Source: an uncultured Flavobacteriales bacterium
Lineage (GTDB): Bacteria > Bacteroidota > Bacteroidia > Flavobacteriales_E > Vicingaceae
Length of the DNA: 40,712 nt
Reading direction: 5' to 3'
Assembly (NCBI GenBank): GCA_913056345.1
Contig: CAJXMH010000027.1
Coordinates: 1-40,712 of the forward strand
Position 1 is the first letter of the stretch. The number at the start of each line of letters is the position of its first letter. Made by a program: the position numbers and the translations under genes. Shown in pieces: positions 18,734-24,956 of this stretch. Below the pieces are notes generated by a model. It saw only the letters and a list, made by a program, of their open reading frames with translations, was not told the DNA's origin and ran no database searches.

Positions 18734-19258
18734 TTACCATTCATGCGCATCATCATCAAACCAGTCGCCTTTGAGTTTGAGTACTTGTTCGATTAGGTCC
18801 CTCACGCAACCCTCGCCACCATTTTTTGGGGAAATGTAGTCCGCAATGGATTTAATCTCTTCAGCGGCATCTTTTGGACAGGCGGCAAAACCAACTTCTT
18901 GCATCACTTTGTAGTCAGGAATATCATCACCCATATACAGGATGCCCTCATCTTCCAATTGGTGTTTGGCCTTTACCTCCTTAAATACAGCGACTTTGTT
19001 TTTACAAGCGAGGTTGACTTCTGTAATACCTAAGCCATTTAAGCGCTTCCGCACACTTTCAGAGGTTCCTCCACTGATAATGATTATGGGATACCCCTTT
19101 TTTACGGCATGTTGTAAGGCATAACCATCTTTAATGTTCATGCGTCTTATTTGCTCTCCATCAGGCAGGGTCAGTACTGTGCCGTCTGTGAGTACCCCGT
19201 CAACATCTAGCATAAATGCAGATACCTTTCTGAGTTTGGCTTTTAAATTAGCAGACAT
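18734..19258 (-). CDS. KdsC-like HAD-IIIA phosphatase (3-deoxy-D-manno-octulosonate-8-phosphate phosphatase type)
   Basis: A 174-residue C0-type HAD hydrolase. Motif I is MLDVDGVLTDG (nucleophile Asp and acid/base Asp), motif II IIISGG, and motif III with GDDIPDYKVM near residue 115. The lack of a cap domain and the tetramer-type length fit KdsC, which releases Kdo from Kdo-8-phosphate for LPS core synthesis; a sialic-acid or other sugar phosphatase is possible. The ATG at 19258 is used, one base after the stop of the DUF2520 gene. The frame open to 19288 overlaps that gene and is not needed. It sits downstream of DUF2520 and the ccm genes on one strand. Confidence 0.85.
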   Translation of the reverse strand: MSANLKAKLRKVSAFMLDVDGVLTDGTVLTLPDGEQIRRMNIKDGYALQHAVKKGYPIIIISGGTSESVRKRLNGLGITEVNLACKNKVAVFKEVKAKHQLEDEGILYMGDDIPDYKVMQEVGFAACPKDAAEEIKSIADYISPKNGGEGCVRDLIEQVLKLKGDWFDDDAHEW

Positions 19259-19259
19259 T

Positions 19260-20060
19260 CTATGACTTTTTCTTTTGTTGACTCTCAAAAATATCTTTGG
19301 TCACTAACTCATAGATTTCTTTGTAATTGCTTTGATCTTTTAGGTAGTCCAAGTGCATGTCAATCACTTTGCGGTCATTTCTCACCGCTGGACCAGTTTG
19401 GGCATTAAGGGGCCTTTCGTTCTTGAGTTTGTTTGAAGTCTTTTCGATCAAAGGACGAATGATCTCAAAAGAGATTTGATGTTGCCGAAGCAAGTCATCG
19501 GCGACATGGTACATGTGGTTGCTGAAGTTATTCGCGAATACAGCCGCTACATGAAGTGCTTTTCGCTTTTCAGAGTCCATTCCATAAACTTTGTTCGAAA
19601 CTGAGCGAGCAAGACTCAATAAAAGGTCCTCCGTTTTTGAATCCCCGCCTTCTACACAAATGGGAATAGGGGTTAAGCTTTCAGTATCATTCTTAGAAAA
19701 AGATTGCACCGGATAAAAGATCCCGACTTGTTCAAAGCCAAGTCCATCAAAAATTTCAATCGGAGTAGAGCCTGAAGTATGCACGATTGGTTTGTCCTTG
19801 ATCTTGAGCTGCTTCAAAACCTCAGGAATAGCATCATCATTAACCGCAATTATAATGAGGTCTGTGTTGGTATTCAACTGACTGAGGTCGGTGGTGTAGT
19901 TGCAGTTCAAAGTCTGACTTAAAAGTAGGGCAGAGGTCTTGGTCCTGCTGTAGATCTCGTGAATCAAATAACCTGCTTGGCGGAAGGCTAAGCCGAAGTT
20001 GTGGCCTACGTTTCCCGCTCCTACAATGGTGACTCTTTTAATATGATGTTTGGCATTCAT
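19260..20060 (-). CDS. Rossmann-fold and DUF2520 domain protein
   Basis: A 266-residue protein. The N-terminal half is an NAD(P)-binding Rossmann domain (VTIVGAGNVGHNFGLAF, GxGxxG near residue 14) of the F420/pyrroline-5-carboxylate reductase type. The C-terminal half is the helical DUF2520 domain (HVAAVFANNFSNHMYHVADDLL). The layout resembles ketopantoate or 6-phosphogluconate-type dehydrogenases, but the substrate is unknown. The ATG at 20060 (MNAKHHIKRV) is used. Upstream codons to 20111 are the overlap with the ccmF tail. Only 4 bases separate it from ccmF, and one base from the KdsC-like gene, so all are probably cotranscribed. Confidence 0.85.
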   Translation of the reverse strand: MNAKHHIKRVTIVGAGNVGHNFGLAFRQAGYLIHEIYSRTKTSALLLSQTLNCNYTTDLSQLNTNTDLIIIAVNDDAIPEVLKQLKIKDKPIVHTSGSTPIEIFDGLGFEQVGIFYPVQSFSKNDTESLTPIPICVEGGDSKTEDLLLSLARSVSNKVYGMDSEKRKALHVAAVFANNFSNHMYHVADDLLRQHQISFEIIRPLIEKTSNKLKNERPLNAQTGPAVRNDRKVIDMHLDYLKDQSNYKEIYELVTKDIFESQQKKKS

Positions 20061-20064
20061 AAAA

Positions 20065-22485
20065 TTAGATTTTGACGTTCGACTTTTGCTTGAAGCGCGT
20101 CCATACGGCAACTAAAGTACCTAAAGTCATCACAATACAACCAATCCACAACACATTAATGTAAGGAAATACAATTGCTTGCATAATAACAAAGTCACCT
20201 GCATTCTTATTTTTTTCTTCAATCAAAATGGAGAGTTTCTCTGCTTCAGGATTAATACCCATGAAGCCAAACTTAACGCCAAGATCAGCTATCTCATCAT
20301 CAATACTGAAAACTCGGTTTCCTCTTAGCACCATAATGGGATTAGCAAAATAACGCTCTCCTTCAAGGGTTTTAGCCCTTATTTTAACGCCAAGAGCTAC
20401 ATCGCTCTCCTCTAATCCTAGACTATCAATGTTCACATTGCGATCAAAATCCATTAATTGTACAATAGCATTGCTAGTGAAAAGTGAATCTCCAATTTGC
20501 AATTTCAAGGTATCAGGCTCACCATATTGCTCCATTGACATAGAGTCTAGGTTTTCTAGATCGGCAAAAGTAATGTGGGTGAAAATATCGCGATCCCAAA
20601 AATGCTTGGTGGAAGGCTCGGGTACATTTCCCATTTGCTGGTTTAGCTGAATGTAAGGGCTTAGGCTAAATTGCTTCTCATACTTACCCTGAGAGTTGAC
20701 CTTAAGGTAATCCATGTTGTAATAGACGAACTTATCATCAATGCTTCGATTGGTGTAGGTTACGTAATAGGGATCCATTAAAATGGTATCTCCTTTTAGC
20801 AACATGACATTTTCATTATTGGCGTCTTTATCGTTATCAAAGTTGATGTTGATCTGGCTTCTATTCTTCGAGATGATTTTTTGATTTCCTGCGGAAAGCA
20901 AAGCACCTAAAATGACCAAACCAAAACCCACATGTGCTAAGGCAGAACCACCCTTTTTAACGTTACCCTTTACCATTCGAATAAAGTAGTCGAGGTTGGC
21001 TAAGACGGCAAAAAGAGAAGTGAAAAGCAATAGGTTGATGAAGAATTTATCGATCTGTAATAAATAAGTAAACAAGATGGTACCTGCTACCGATAGAATT
21101 AAAGAAGGTGTTATCTGTTTCGCAAATTTCTTTACATCCGTTTTCTTGTACTTTAAGAATTGACTTACCGCAATAAATAAGGTTATCAGCACTGTGAGTG
21201 GCAACTGCCATGAATTGTAATGTTCAATCGGCTTGGCGGGCGGCGCCATATTGGTGTTAAACAACTCATTGATCACAGGAATAGAGGTAGAGAGGGTTAT
21301 TTGAAAGGCAGAGATTACCAAGACCAATGAGCCTAAGAATATCCAAAACTCTCTACTCCAAAAAGCATCTTCTTCTGACTTGATCAAGAATTTACCTGCT
21401 CTAAAAATCAAGAAATAAAGGCCTAAGCCAAGGTAAAAGAGTAAAAAGATGATCAACTGACCTGGTAAGCCATCTGCAAAAGAGTGAACAGAAGTCTCGC
21501 CTAAGATCCCACTCTTGGTGAGGTAAGTCGAATAAACCACTAAAAGGAAAGCAAAAAGCGATAGAGCAAAGGCAGAAAACATTGAACGCATTTTGTTTCG
21601 GTTGATCAGCATGAGGTGACCAGCACCAACCAAGATCAGCCAAGGCACTAAAGAGCTGTTTTCAACCGGATCCCAAGCCCAAAAGCCTCCAAAACTCAGG
21701 GCCTCGTAAGCCCATGCACCTCCCATTAAAACTCCCAATCCTAAAATGGCAATGCCAAAATAGGTCCAAGGTAATGCAGGCCTGATCCAAGCTTGGTATT
21801 CTTTTTTCCAAAGGGCTGCAATGGCGTAAGCAAAAGGAATCAAGGTGGTAGCAAAACCGAAGAAAACCGTGGGTGGGTGAATGGTCATCCAATAATTCTG
21901 AAGAAGCGGATTCAACCCGTTTCCTTCCACAAAGTTCAAATAATTGGGATTGGTGGTAAAAGGAAGGTTGATCATGTCAGGATGCTCTCTCAATAAGATA
22001 AACGGGTTACTTCCAACCTGAATATCAAAAGGATAAATACCTAATAGCATGGCGCCTAAAAAGGCTTGTACAGAGGCAAATACCATCATTACCATACCTT
22101 CCCAACGCTTAGAAGTAAAGATTAGGATGTTTCCTAATACTACATTCCAAAAAGCCCAGAGCATGGTGCTGCCTTCTTGACCTTCCCAGAAACACGATAA
22201 AATATAGCGGGTAGGTAAAGCAGTGGAGCTGTGTCTCCATACATAGTAATATTCAAAGGAATGGGTGTAGATCAGGTAAAAAAGTATACCGATAATTCCC
22301 AATAAGGCAAAAGAATGTAGCCGGTAAAAAAAACGCCCAAACCGCTTCCAAGAATTCAGCTCAGGATTGAGGTCAGAGCCAAAAAAGTAAAAGAAAACTG
22401 CCAGTAAACTGCTGACAAAAGAAAGTACAATTAAAAAATCTCCAACTTGACCTGCTAAGAGGTTCTCTCCAACGTATTCTATCAT
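20065..22485 (-). CDS. ccmF: Cytochrome c heme lyase subunit CcmF
   Basis: An 806-residue polytopic membrane protein of the CcmF/CcsA heme-handling family. The tryptophan-rich WWD signature GGFWAWDPVENSSLVPWL is near residue 265. Conserved His occurs in MTIHPPTVFFG and ETSVHSFADG, as expected for external and transmembrane heme ligands. About 12 TM helices are followed by a large periplasmic region (about 530-770) and a final helix (VLWIGCIVMTLGTLVAVW). It is longer than E. coli CcmF (about 650). CcmF attaches heme from CcmE to apocytochrome c. It is the last ccm gene, 4 bases after ccmE. No ccmG or ccmH is present here, so thiol handling of the apocytochrome must come from elsewhere or differ. 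Confidence 0.92.
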   Translation of the reverse strand: MIEYVGENLLAGQVGDFLIVLSFVSSLLAVFFYFFGSDLNPELNSWKRFGRFFYRLHSFALLGIIGILFYLIYTHSFEYYYVWRHSSTALPTRYILSCFWEGQEGSTMLWAFWNVVLGNILIFTSKRWEGMVMMVFASVQAFLGAMLLGIYPFDIQVGSNPFILLREHPDMINLPFTTNPNYLNFVEGNGLNPLLQNYWMTIHPPTVFFGFATTLIPFAYAIAALWKKEYQAWIRPALPWTYFGIAILGLGVLMGGAWAYEALSFGGFWAWDPVENSSLVPWLILVGAGHLMLINRNKMRSMFSAFALSLFAFLLVVYSTYLTKSGILGETSVHSFADGLPGQLIIFLLFYLGLGLYFLIFRAGKFLIKSEEDAFWSREFWIFLGSLVLVISAFQITLSTSIPVINELFNTNMAPPAKPIEHYNSWQLPLTVLITLFIAVSQFLKYKKTDVKKFAKQITPSLILSVAGTILFTYLLQIDKFFINLLLFTSLFAVLANLDYFIRMVKGNVKKGGSALAHVGFGLVILGALLSAGNQKIISKNRSQININFDNDKDANNENVMLLKGDTILMDPYYVTYTNRSIDDKFVYYNMDYLKVNSQGKYEKQFSLSPYIQLNQQMGNVPEPSTKHFWDRDIFTHITFADLENLDSMSMEQYGEPDTLKLQIGDSLFTSNAIVQLMDFDRNVNIDSLGLEESDVALGVKIRAKTLEGERYFANPIMVLRGNRVFSIDDEIADLGVKFGFMGINPEAEKLSILIEEKNKNAGDFVIMQAIVFPYINVLWIGCIVMTLGTLVAVWTRFKQKSNVKI

Positions 22486-22489
22486 CCCA

Positions 22490-22903
22490 TTAAGACTTAC
22501 TTTCTGCAGTTATTTCAGTTAATTCATCAGCTTGGCCATCATTGTATTTGGAAGGGCATTTCATCAAAATCTTATCTGCATAGAATTGTCCACCCTCTAC
22601 GCTACCTGTAACCACAACTTGTTCAGAGCGTTCAAAATCTTGTGGTTTTGCTCCATTAAAGATCACTTTTCTTTCCGCACCGCTGTTGTCAACCATGAAA
22701 AAAGAGAAGGAATTTGCATCTTGTTCTGGTTGGTAGCTAATCTCTTTTTCTTTGTTCAATTGACCAACCACTTGGATTTGTTTGCCTGCTAATTGCTCTG
22801 CAGTATTAAAATCTGCATATGTAGCCGCATCCGAAACCATGCTGATAATGGCTCCAATCGCAACTGCAATCATGACGATGGCTATGATGTGTGTTTTTTT
22901 CAT
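22490..22903 (-). CDS. ccmE: Heme chaperone CcmE, CxxxY variant
   Basis: A 137-residue membrane-anchored periplasmic heme chaperone. It has an N-terminal anchor (IIAIVMIAVAIGAIISMV) and then an OB-fold beta barrel (QIQVVGQLNKEKEISY, SFFMVDNSGAERKVIFNG, QVVVTGSVEGGQFYADKIL). In canonical CcmE the barrel ends in a conserved His that binds heme covalently. Here the equivalent position is C116 in KCPSKY, giving C116xxxY120. The CxxxY type is known from some archaea and Desulfovibrio, in systems lacking CcmH. The start overlaps the ccmD stop by 4 bases. It lies between ccmD and ccmF. Confidence 0.9.
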   Translation of the reverse strand: MKKTHIIAIVMIAVAIGAIISMVSDAATYADFNTAEQLAGKQIQVVGQLNKEKEISYQPEQDANSFSFFMVDNSGAERKVIFNGAKPQDFERSEQVVVTGSVEGGQFYADKILMKCPSKYNDGQADELTEITAESKS

Positions 22904-23103
22904 TTTTCTGTTTCTTCTTCTAACTTCTTTATTTTCCGATCAAGCGAGATCAGGTAAATGATCAAGCCCAACAAAATTACACCCAAAACCGCAACCACTA
23001 CATAAATTTTACCGTTTGCGCGCATTTCGTCGGCCATGGGTATTTCTTGCGCTTGAGTTTGTAAAGCAAGTAAAATACTTAGCAGAAATAAGACAATTTT
23101 CAT
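22900..23103 (-). CDS. ccmD: CcmD-family small membrane protein
   Basis: A 67-residue protein. It has an N-terminal signal-like segment (MKIVLFLLSILLALQTQAQ), a short periplasmic linker (EIPMADEMRANGK), one TM helix (IYVVVAVLGVILLGLIIYLI) and a charged cytoplasmic tail (SLDRKIKKLEEETEK). CcmD stabilises the CcmABC complex and is needed to release heme-loaded CcmE. This Bacteroidota form is longer than the usual CcmD because of the signal-like segment. The ATG at 23103 gives an ATGA overlap with the ccmC stop. The frame is open to 23175, but the extra residues lie over the ccmC end and look unnatural. Confidence 0.8.
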   Translation of the reverse strand: MKIVLFLLSILLALQTQAQEIPMADEMRANGKIYVVVAVLGVILLGLIIYLISLDRKIKKLEEETEK

Positions 23104-23756
23104 GAGCTTAAGTTTTCTTTTAGTCGTGAAATTCTTAGCCTTAAATTGGCCATCCAAAGTGCCAATAAGATCCAAGCGACCACGGCAGGATAAAAGACTA
23201 ATTTCATATTATTATCAAGGTCATAATTGTTAAAACCTGGGTTGCCACCATTCCCGGGATGCAGCGAGTCGGTCATTCTCGGCAAAATGCCAATAAAAAC
23301 AATTAATAACACAAAAGCGAAAATGTTGTAGACTGCCGAGATACGTGCTCTTTTCTGTTCATCGTCTAAAGAGCCCCTAAGCACTAAATATGCTAAGTAG
23401 ATCAACATGGTAATCGCTGAACCATTAAGCTTTACATCATTGGTCCACCAGGCGCCCCAGGTAAATTTTGCCCAAATACTGCCTGTTATTGTGCCGAGAA
23501 CTCCAAATATGATCCCCACATTTACTAACTCAATCGCTTTACGGTCATCTTCTAAACTGCCGCTTGAAAGGTTTTTAATGCTGTAAATGGTAGACAATAA
23601 AAAGAGAAAGATCATGCTAAACCACATGGGAACATGAAAGTAAAGGTTGCGAATGCTTTCATAAAGGATAACCTGCCTAGGAACCTCAATTAGAAAACCG
23701 CCAATTAAGGTATAGAAAAGAAGTAAAACTGCTAAGGCTTTCCACCAATATCTCAT
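23100..23756 (-). CDS. ccmC: Heme exporter/handling protein CcmC
   Basis: A 218-residue inner-membrane protein with six TM helices. The WWD-type motif TWGAWWTNDVKLNGSAI is near residue 88. Flanking periplasmic His are likely heme ligands: NLYFHVPMWFS (about residue 41) and DSLHPGN (about residue 167). CcmC loads heme onto CcmE. It is downstream of ccmB by 39 bases and coupled to ccmD through a 4-base overlap. Length and topology match the family. Confidence 0.92.
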   Translation of the reverse strand: MRYWWKALAVLLLFYTLIGGFLIEVPRQVILYESIRNLYFHVPMWFSMIFLFLLSTIYSIKNLSSGSLEDDRKAIELVNVGIIFGVLGTITGSIWAKFTWGAWWTNDVKLNGSAITMLIYLAYLVLRGSLDDEQKRARISAVYNIFAFVLLIVFIGILPRMTDSLHPGNGGNPGFNNYDLDNNMKLVFYPAVVAWILLALWMANLRLRISRLKENLSS

Positions 23757-23795
23757 TGCTAATGAGTCAATTAAAACATAAACACTGCGCCAATT

Positions 23796-24428
23796 TTAGC
23801 TTCTCCAAAGGTAGGGAAATAAAACATAGGCTAGGGCGATTATCACCAGGTTAATCAAGCCCATCATTCCTAAATAAAGTTGCCATTCATCACTTCCAAA
23901 ACCCAAACCAATCAATACGCTTGCTTTAATTGCAGTCAAGAGCATGGGCAAGAGAATTGGAAAGGCCAAAATGGCTGTTAAGGTTGAGTTATTGTTGGTT
24001 TTCGCTGCAATGCCCGAAACCAAGGTCAATACTCCGGAGAATCCTAAACTAGCTAGCACCAAAACCGCCAAAAAGGGTAGATTGTTTTCCAAAGGATTTC
24101 CCAAAAGCAGACTAAAGAAAAGCCAATTGATCAGCCCAATTAAAACCAATAACAAACCGTTAAAAAGCAGTTTGGATAGAATGATGGATTGGGGACTGCA
24201 CAATTGGTAATAGTAAAAGAACTGACTACCGCTTTCTGCTCTAAAACTGTTGATCGAAGCATTGGTAGAGGCAAAAAGTAGGATAATCCAAAATAGGGCA
24301 ATCCAAGTGGTAAGGTCTTCTAATTGGTTAAAAACTAAAAAGGCAATGAAAACAGTAGAGATTACGTAAAGAAAAATGCCGTTGATAGCGGATTTCTGAC
24401 GCAGTTCAGTGCGAATTTCTTTTTGCAA
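23796..24428 (-). CDS. ccmB: Heme ABC exporter permease CcmB, non-ATG start
   Basis: A 210-residue (or slightly longer) integral membrane protein with six TM helices, the permease of the CcmAB ATPase that drives release of holo-CcmE. Conserved segments such as ESGSQFFYYYQLCSPQSIILSK and FLAVLVLASLGFSGVLTLVSGIAA are present. There is no in-frame ATG from the upstream stop (24477-24479) to the conserved region. Start candidates are TTG at 24428, CTG at 24431 or 24434, or codons further up (ALFKDISLLLQKEI also looks coding). I use TTG. No ccmA lies beside it; in many genomes ccmA is adjacent, so it is probably elsewhere. Confidence 0.82.
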   Translation of the reverse strand: MQKEIRTELRQKSAINGIFLYVISTVFIAFLVFNQLEDLTTWIALFWIILLFASTNASINSFRAESGSQFFYYYQLCSPQSIILSKLLFNGLLLVLIGLINWLFFSLLLGNPLENNLPFLAVLVLASLGFSGVLTLVSGIAAKTNNNSTLTAILAFPILLPMLLTAIKASVLIGLGFGSDEWQLYLGMMGLINLVIIALAYVLFPYLWRS

Positions 24429-24488: not shown

Positions 24489-24956
24489 CTAATACGCTTG
24501 CCAAAAAGGATCAGGGTAAAGCAAACAAAAATCAGTTTCTTCCCATCTTTCGCCTGCTGTTAAAAGCATACTTTCATCGATTTGATCTTGCATAACTTCA
24601 AATAACTCCCGTTCCTCAAACCTGATATGGTTTTCCAGTAGCTTGGCAAATACTATGAGCTCATTTTTTGAATTCAATTCGGTTTTTAAATGCCTTTGAA
24701 TCACTTGGTGTTCCTCCAAGGCTTTTTTGATCAGCGGATGATCGTTCCCAAGGAGTGGAAAGATTTTAGATTCTTCAGCTGCCAAATGCCTTTCGAAATA
24801 GTGCTCAAAAAACCACCGCACATAATGGCTTAGCCGTCTTGGTTGAATTCCCTTTTCTAGCCCTTTTTTTAAATTAAATACCAGCATAAGCGCTTGGTGG
24901 TGTTCCCGACTGATGCCCTGCAGGGCAGGGTGGCGTTTCAAGGGTTTGCGTTTCAT
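24489..24956 (-). CDS. Hemerythrin-like domain protein
   Basis: A 155-residue protein with one hemerythrin HHE cation-binding four-helix bundle. Candidate di-iron ligands are H19 or H20 (REHHQAL), the H and E residues in FEHYFERHLAAEESKIFPLL, H85 (EEHQVIQRH), and HIRFEERELF near residue 111. Roles for such small cytoplasmic proteins include oxygen, NO or iron sensing and iron-centre repair (RIC/YtfE relatives). There is no ScdA N-terminal domain here. It is divergent from the GNAT gene and immediately upstream of the ccm operon, whose promoter overlaps its 3' end. A link to heme or redox handling is only inferred from position. Confidence 0.8.
   Translation of the reverse strand: MKRKPLKRHPALQGISREHHQALMLVFNLKKGLEKGIQPRRLSHYVRWFFEHYFERHLAAEESKIFPLLGNDHPLIKKALEEHQVIQRHLKTELNSKNELIVFAKLLENHIRFEERELFEVMQDQIDESMLLTAGERWEETDFCLLYPDPFWQAY

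Follow-up and report, generated by a model that had tools for sequence, protein, structure and literature searches.

The locus described here raises the question of how heme is attached to c-type cytochromes in a bacterium whose cytochrome c maturation genes encode a heme chaperone, CcmE, with a Cys where the canonical protein has its heme-binding His, and include neither ccmA, ccmG, nor ccmH in their immediate surroundings. The window, i.e., the whole stretch of 40,712 nucleotides that was analysed (GenBank assembly GCA_913056345.1, contig CAJXMH010000027.1), is one complete contig (C27) of a Bacteroidota genome of 2.92 Mb and 99.66% completeness, which lies near the Flavobacteriales MAG UBA5081 and belongs to a family group shared with Acidiluteibacter. 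The genes follow one another on the minus strand in the order ccmB, ccmC, ccmD, ccmE, and ccmF, followed by a DUF2520 gene (19260-20111) and a kdsC-like HAD gene (18734-19288), both on the same strand and both conserved neighbours of ccmF here and of the synthase CcsBA in relatives that use System II. Inspection of the operon bore out the statement of the preliminary description that no ccmA, ccmG, or ccmH adjoins ccmBCDEF in the window. Leaving aside the role of an additional domain in CcmF, these genes very probably constitute the core that delivers and attaches heme in a pathway of the System I* type, the variant defined by a Cys-type CcmE, whose commonest motif is CPSKY (Stevens 2011, PMC3601427).

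CcmE (137 aa; 22490-22903, minus strand) matches PF03100 with 54.9 bits against a cut-off of 24.6, and it is the single CcmE found in a search of the 99.66%-complete genome, which, at that completeness, rules out a second copy of the His type as the source of the His. Instead of HxxxY, the protein carries C116-P-S-K-Y120, as had been noticed from the sequence alone; its codons lie at 22544-22558 on the minus strand, and the motif is the predicted site of covalent heme attachment. The alignment across Bacteroidota that had been proposed for residue 116 gave an invariant Cys, and all five columns of the motif are invariant in 14 diverse CcmE homologues. Moreover, among the 90 distinct Bacteroidota genomes in which the motif was read, 89 carry CPSKY, one CPSRY, and none His, in a sample that, owing to the choice of top-scoring and listed genomes, under-represents the phylum's weakest matches to PF03100. 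These 90 genomes (60 plus 30 new ones) come from PF03100 searches of the phylum, where the family is present in 264 of 392 genomes, and of relatives, where it is present in 30 of 41, and they span more than one class and about 50 families. The 392-genome search supplied its best-scoring genomes as the first 30, and the 30 added later were selected from the listed places so as to cover diverse families. A contig scan baited with a KCPSKY pattern returned 577 matches, which cannot count against His and were therefore left out of the tally. Since the Cys recurs in 90 of 90 genomes read, it is neither a sequencing error nor a chance event, and the Cys-type CcmE is the rule across Bacteroidota. No CcmE was found on plasmids in the plasmid search.

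The other genes of the delivery module lie upstream on the minus strand. The ccmB gene (23796-24428; PF03379, 31.7 bits) encodes 210 aa if read from a TTG, its true start being uncertain, ccmC (23100-23756; PF01578, 66.3 bits) encodes 218 aa, and ccmD (about 22900-23103; PF20077, 77.7 bits) encodes a 67-aa protein of the CcmD_alt family, read from an ATG, that has a signal-peptide-like start (MKIVLFLLSILLALQTQAQ) ahead of its single membrane helix. In CcmC, the equivalents of the heme-ligand residues H60 and H184 of E. coli are invariant in 66 sequences, and the heme-handling WWD motif is altered to WGAWWTNDVKLN and variable within the phylum. Both CcmB, with its 31.7 bits, and CcmC are thus divergent and, since only CcmB of the proteobacterial cluster reportedly complements Shewanella (PMC11868835), the export step may differ in these organisms, a point that weighs against the System I* reading. 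Just upstream of ccmB, a gene on the same strand encodes a hemerythrin-domain protein (24489-24956), which has a counterpart close to ccmB in the nearest relative (L077) as well.

The apparent lack of ccmA, which the preliminary description took to be part of the variant, has to be corrected, since the ATPase is merely unlinked. A CcmA-group ATPase is encoded on another contig (G000:C7:42343-42966, equal to L222:6344-6967), between lpxA and efp, as member X of an lpxD-lpxC/fabZ-lpxA-X-efp cluster, and lpxA adjoins this ATPase in 17 of 18 loci, relatives included, within the limits of the stretches retrieved. Within a lipid A cluster, such an ATPase is easily missed or misannotated. Its assignment builds on other classes of the phylum, in which an ABC ATPase of about 210 aa lies beside or close to ccmB (L159, L163-L165, L171, L179, L180, and L188); a profile made from these eight proteins (A2) matches C7:42361-42969 in this genome with 155 bits. 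Across the family, the top A2 match reaches 147-174 bits in the 15 CcmE-positive genomes, within an open frame of some 205-230 aa, as opposed to 140 bits at most, from longer and different ATPases, in the 10 CcmE-negative ones, and no CcmE-less genome of the family has a CcmA-group ATPase. In the tree, 12 other ATPases of the genome fall outside a group, supported at 100/100, that unites the ccmB-linked anchors with the unlinked ATPases; the placement of E. coli CcmA is uninformative owing to its very long branch. Loss of ccmA is thus ruled out by the profile, the tree, and the co-occurrence with CcmE. The TIGR01189 model was discarded as a CcmA test for being too narrow, as it exceeded its cut-off in only four of 14 control genomes, and the ATPase located by the ccm genes in Saprospiraceae, which lies divergent to ccmE and is most similar to an FtsE-like ATPase of the present genome, was likewise rejected as CcmA. 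Outside the family, CcmA and CcmF are present in one fragmented assembly (G427) in which CcmE and CcmC were not found.

The preliminary description had suggested a variant System I in Bacteroidota. The genes of System I* and its Cys motif are indeed present; the variant is not, however, peculiar to this operon, being the rule of the phylum and already named. Heme bound to the Cys of CcmE has been reported in D. desulfuricans and M. acetivorans (PMC3601427, PMC9084895), so that the kind of system is already known, and about a third of the System I* genomes keep CcmH (PMC3601427). The present set resembles System I* in its CPSKY CcmE, in the presence of CcmA to CcmF, and in that no CcmH was found here, but it differs in the displacement of ccmA to the lpxA-efp cluster, perhaps in the second periplasmic beta domain of CcmF, and in its taxonomic position, since the groups named for System I* are delta-Proteobacteria, Chloroflexi, and Firmicutes (Stevens 2011, PMC3601427). 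With the CcmABCEF system of Methanosarcina acetivorans it shares a CXXXY CcmE, the lack of CcmH, and CcmF as the sole synthase part, whereas the archaeal system has no CcmD and a CcmF in two pieces in place of the CcmD_alt and the one long CcmF found here. Compared with the canonical System I of E. coli (CcmABCDEFGH), homologues of CcmB, CcmC, CcmD, CcmE, and CcmF and the four heme-ligand His of CcmF are retained, but CPSKY replaces HxxxY, CcmH is lacking, and CcmF contains a large insert.

CcmF, the heme lyase (806 aa; 20065-22485, minus strand; PF01578 and PF16327), had been called unusually long, which holds against the 647 aa of the E. coli protein and not within the phylum, where most CcmF proteins have 740-1009 aa. 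Its residues H203, H290, H334, and H518 are invariant in 34 homologues and align with H173, H261, H303, and H491 of E. coli CcmF, the known heme-ligand His of that protein, and the WWD stretch is aligned too. An AlphaFold model (pLDDT 87, pTM 0.81) superimposes on Thermus CcmF (6zmq) with a Z of 36.3 over 570 residues. The insert separates a conserved D-[IL]-[YF] motif from the last helix, measures 125-264 residues in all 34 aligned Bacteroidota proteins as against 16 in E. coli, and appears in the model as a second all-beta domain. The periplasmic part comprises domain 1 (residues 556-642; 20560-20820, minus strand), delimited by the alignment and the AF2 strands and common to E. coli CcmF, and domain 2 (residues ~654-760; 20206-20526, minus strand), which E. 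coli CcmF does not have. Profile comparison relates the two domains to one another (P 6.6e-6; score 31-33 versus 12 at most in 30 column shuffles), and the insert therefore appears to be domain 1 duplicated in tandem and since diverged. A sequence search of the PDB with the insert gave nothing credible. A fused CcmH or thioredoxin was considered and rejected, since the insert is all-beta and the number of Cys in CcmF ranges from 0 to 7, with none in a fixed position.

The nearest known fold to the periplasmic part of CcmF is predicted to be that of CcsB in the fused CcsBA of Helicobacter hepaticus (7s9y/7s9z). Foldseek places the Helicobacter CcsBA first (7s9z, E 8.6e-4; 7s9y, 2.0e-3; next row, 4.6e-2), as does VIA-align, which re-ranks the Foldseek matches and is thus not independent of them (7s9y, Z 7.8 over 92 residues), although these scores are modest, a Z near 8 being attainable by a common arrangement and the Foldseek TM-score being 0.23. 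At this modest level, the modelled fold of the extra domain best resembles the CcsB part of CcsBA, a System II synthase with no need of CcmH; in CcsBA, a beta cap above the active site has been described, and beta structure in CcmF has been mentioned (PMC10663686). CcsBA is nevertheless a different protein, and the profile of domain 2 matches the CcsB of System II relatives only weakly (19.5 versus a shuffle maximum of 17.1). It is a tentative and rather improbable proposal, then, that the Bacteroidota CcmF would be a stand-alone synthase, in which the duplicated beta domain would act as a CcsB-like cap and replace CcmH in the handling of the apocytochrome, as in CcsBA.

A reading whose probability comes close to an even one holds that this is an ordinary System I* in which the long CcmF reflects lineage drift and domain 2 is no substitute for CcmH, CcmH being dispensable with a Cys-type CcmE, as in archaea. 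This reading shares System I* with the preferred explanation and departs from it only on the extra domain, and the probabilities of the two overlap. In its favour, M. acetivorans manages with CcmABCEF alone, its CcmF being split (PMC9084895), the ccm genes of D. desulfuricans function without CcmG and CcmH (PMC3601427), and conservation within CcmF is lowest in domain 2, with a mean of 0.36 versus 0.67 for the core. However, domain 2 occurs in 34 of 34 aligned Bacteroidota CcmF proteins, and a Metabacillus plasmid that combines a CPSKY CcmE with a retained ccmH encodes a CcmF of 660 aa without the insert, a single case that fits the insert standing in for CcmH. The plasmid, pB218 of Metabacillus sp. 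B2-18 (L255:6364-13340), a member of Bacillota, carries a full System I set, which also includes an ABC ATPase, CcmB, CcmC, CcmD, and a TlpA protein.

An explanation that we consider unlikely assigns the roles of CcmH and CcmG to unrecognised proteins, e.g., a TlpA-like thioredoxin and an unlinked protein with a CcmH fold. As regards CcmG, TIGR00385 exceeded its cut-off in none of 41 genomes, and TlpA-like proteins matched below the cut-off in all 41; in the present genome, the candidate on contig C17 (171 aa, WCSPC, signal-peptide-like start) reaches 68.6 bits against the CcmG model, still below the cut-off, and lends this explanation some support. A further point for it is that a few other Bacteroidota (L209-L213) encode a Cys-rich domain resembling CcmH (such as CGCGSCxEESLxxCKC), and a diverged CcmH replacement beyond the reach of any profile is possible. 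Against it, the best PF03918 match in this 99.66%-complete genome scores 12.7 bits, below the cut-off of 25, so that ccmH, reported as lacking from the operon, was not detected elsewhere in the genome either; PF03918 exceeds the cut-off in only five of the 392 genomes of the phylum, where it matches this Cys-rich domain, and those that were read lie away from ccm genes. Some of the L209-L213 proteins have a zinc-ribbon-like N-terminus and are encoded near putative metal-binding secreted proteins, with no ccm genes beside them. Finally, a canonical System I with an unusual operon and a His provided by a second CcmE has a practically negligible probability, since the genome has one CcmE, the Cys is found in 90 of 90 genomes read, CcmH was not found, and no point in support of this explanation came to light.

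The genome encodes c-type cytochromes. One respiratory cluster, which looks like an alternative complex III with a terminal oxidase, contains a protein of 422 aa that has six CXXCH motifs, together with a mono-heme partner, and a second, cbb3-like cluster contains two CXXCH proteins; the names of both clusters are our inference. No System II (CcsA or CcsBA) was found, the sole PF01578 proteins of the genome being CcmC and CcmF. Thus, with cytochromes encoded, no CcmH above the cut-off, and no CcsA or CcsBA, the ccm genes are the only candidate maturation system found and most likely serve these cytochromes. In the System I* pathway preferred here, CcmB, CcmC, CcmD, and the unlinked CcmA would load heme onto CcmE, which, by analogy with the Desulfovibrio and Methanosarcina proteins, would hold it covalently through Cys116, with Tyr120 as the likely axial ligand. 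In turn, CcmF would take the heme from CcmE and attach it to the CXXCH of the apocytochrome without CcmH, a step in which its second beta domain may cover the active site or help to position the apocytochrome instead of CcmH. At a guess, the TlpA-like thioredoxin may hold the cysteines of CXXCH in the reduced state.

Within the family, CcmE, CcmC, and CcmF are encoded by 15 genomes; the other 10 have a single CcsBA instead (open frame of 1033-1067 aa), and none has both. CcsBA directly adjoins the DUF2520 gene in 10 of 10 genomes (L245-L254), with kdsC also in the stretch in seven of them. Among the 12 CcmE genomes with a stretch reaching past ccmF, DUF2520 comes directly after ccmF in nine, eight of these with kdsC as well; of the remaining three, two have no DUF2520 beside ccmF, and the third (L262) has a weak match to it whose branch is very long. 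CcsBA and ccmBCDEF therefore occupy the same place by DUF2520-kdsC in different genera of the family and, because the DUF2520 tree groups nine of the 10 System II genomes together, one or two exchanges suffice. A Bacteroidota-type ccmE-ccmF-DUF2520 set was also seen on a contig filed as Candidatus Competibacteraceae (L122), which is probably a binning error.

In the literature, nothing specific to the CcmE or CcmF of Bacteroidota and no experiment on them was found, although a mention is possible in Allen 2006 or Goddard 2010, which are also cited for the System I* variant. Two reviews, one of them PMC3601427, do not list Bacteroidota among the System I or System I* groups. As far as the literature searched shows, the Cys-type rule in Bacteroidota, the location of ccmA in the lpx cluster, the duplicated beta domain of CcmF, and the exchange of System I* and System II at one locus are apparently new.

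These results correct the annotation of operons that appear to lack ccmA, yet whose ATPase lies in a lipid A gene cluster, and indicate that System I* and System II substitute for one another at a single locus inside one family. As regards heme attachment by System I* without CcmH, the remaining synthase subunit of this phylum has a specific and deletable extra domain and, with its cultivable members and System II sister genera, the phylum offers a direct test of the role of CcmH. If the proposal of a CcsB-like cap is true, the CcmF of these bacteria would work like CcsBA, the very protein found in its place on the chromosome in sister genera.
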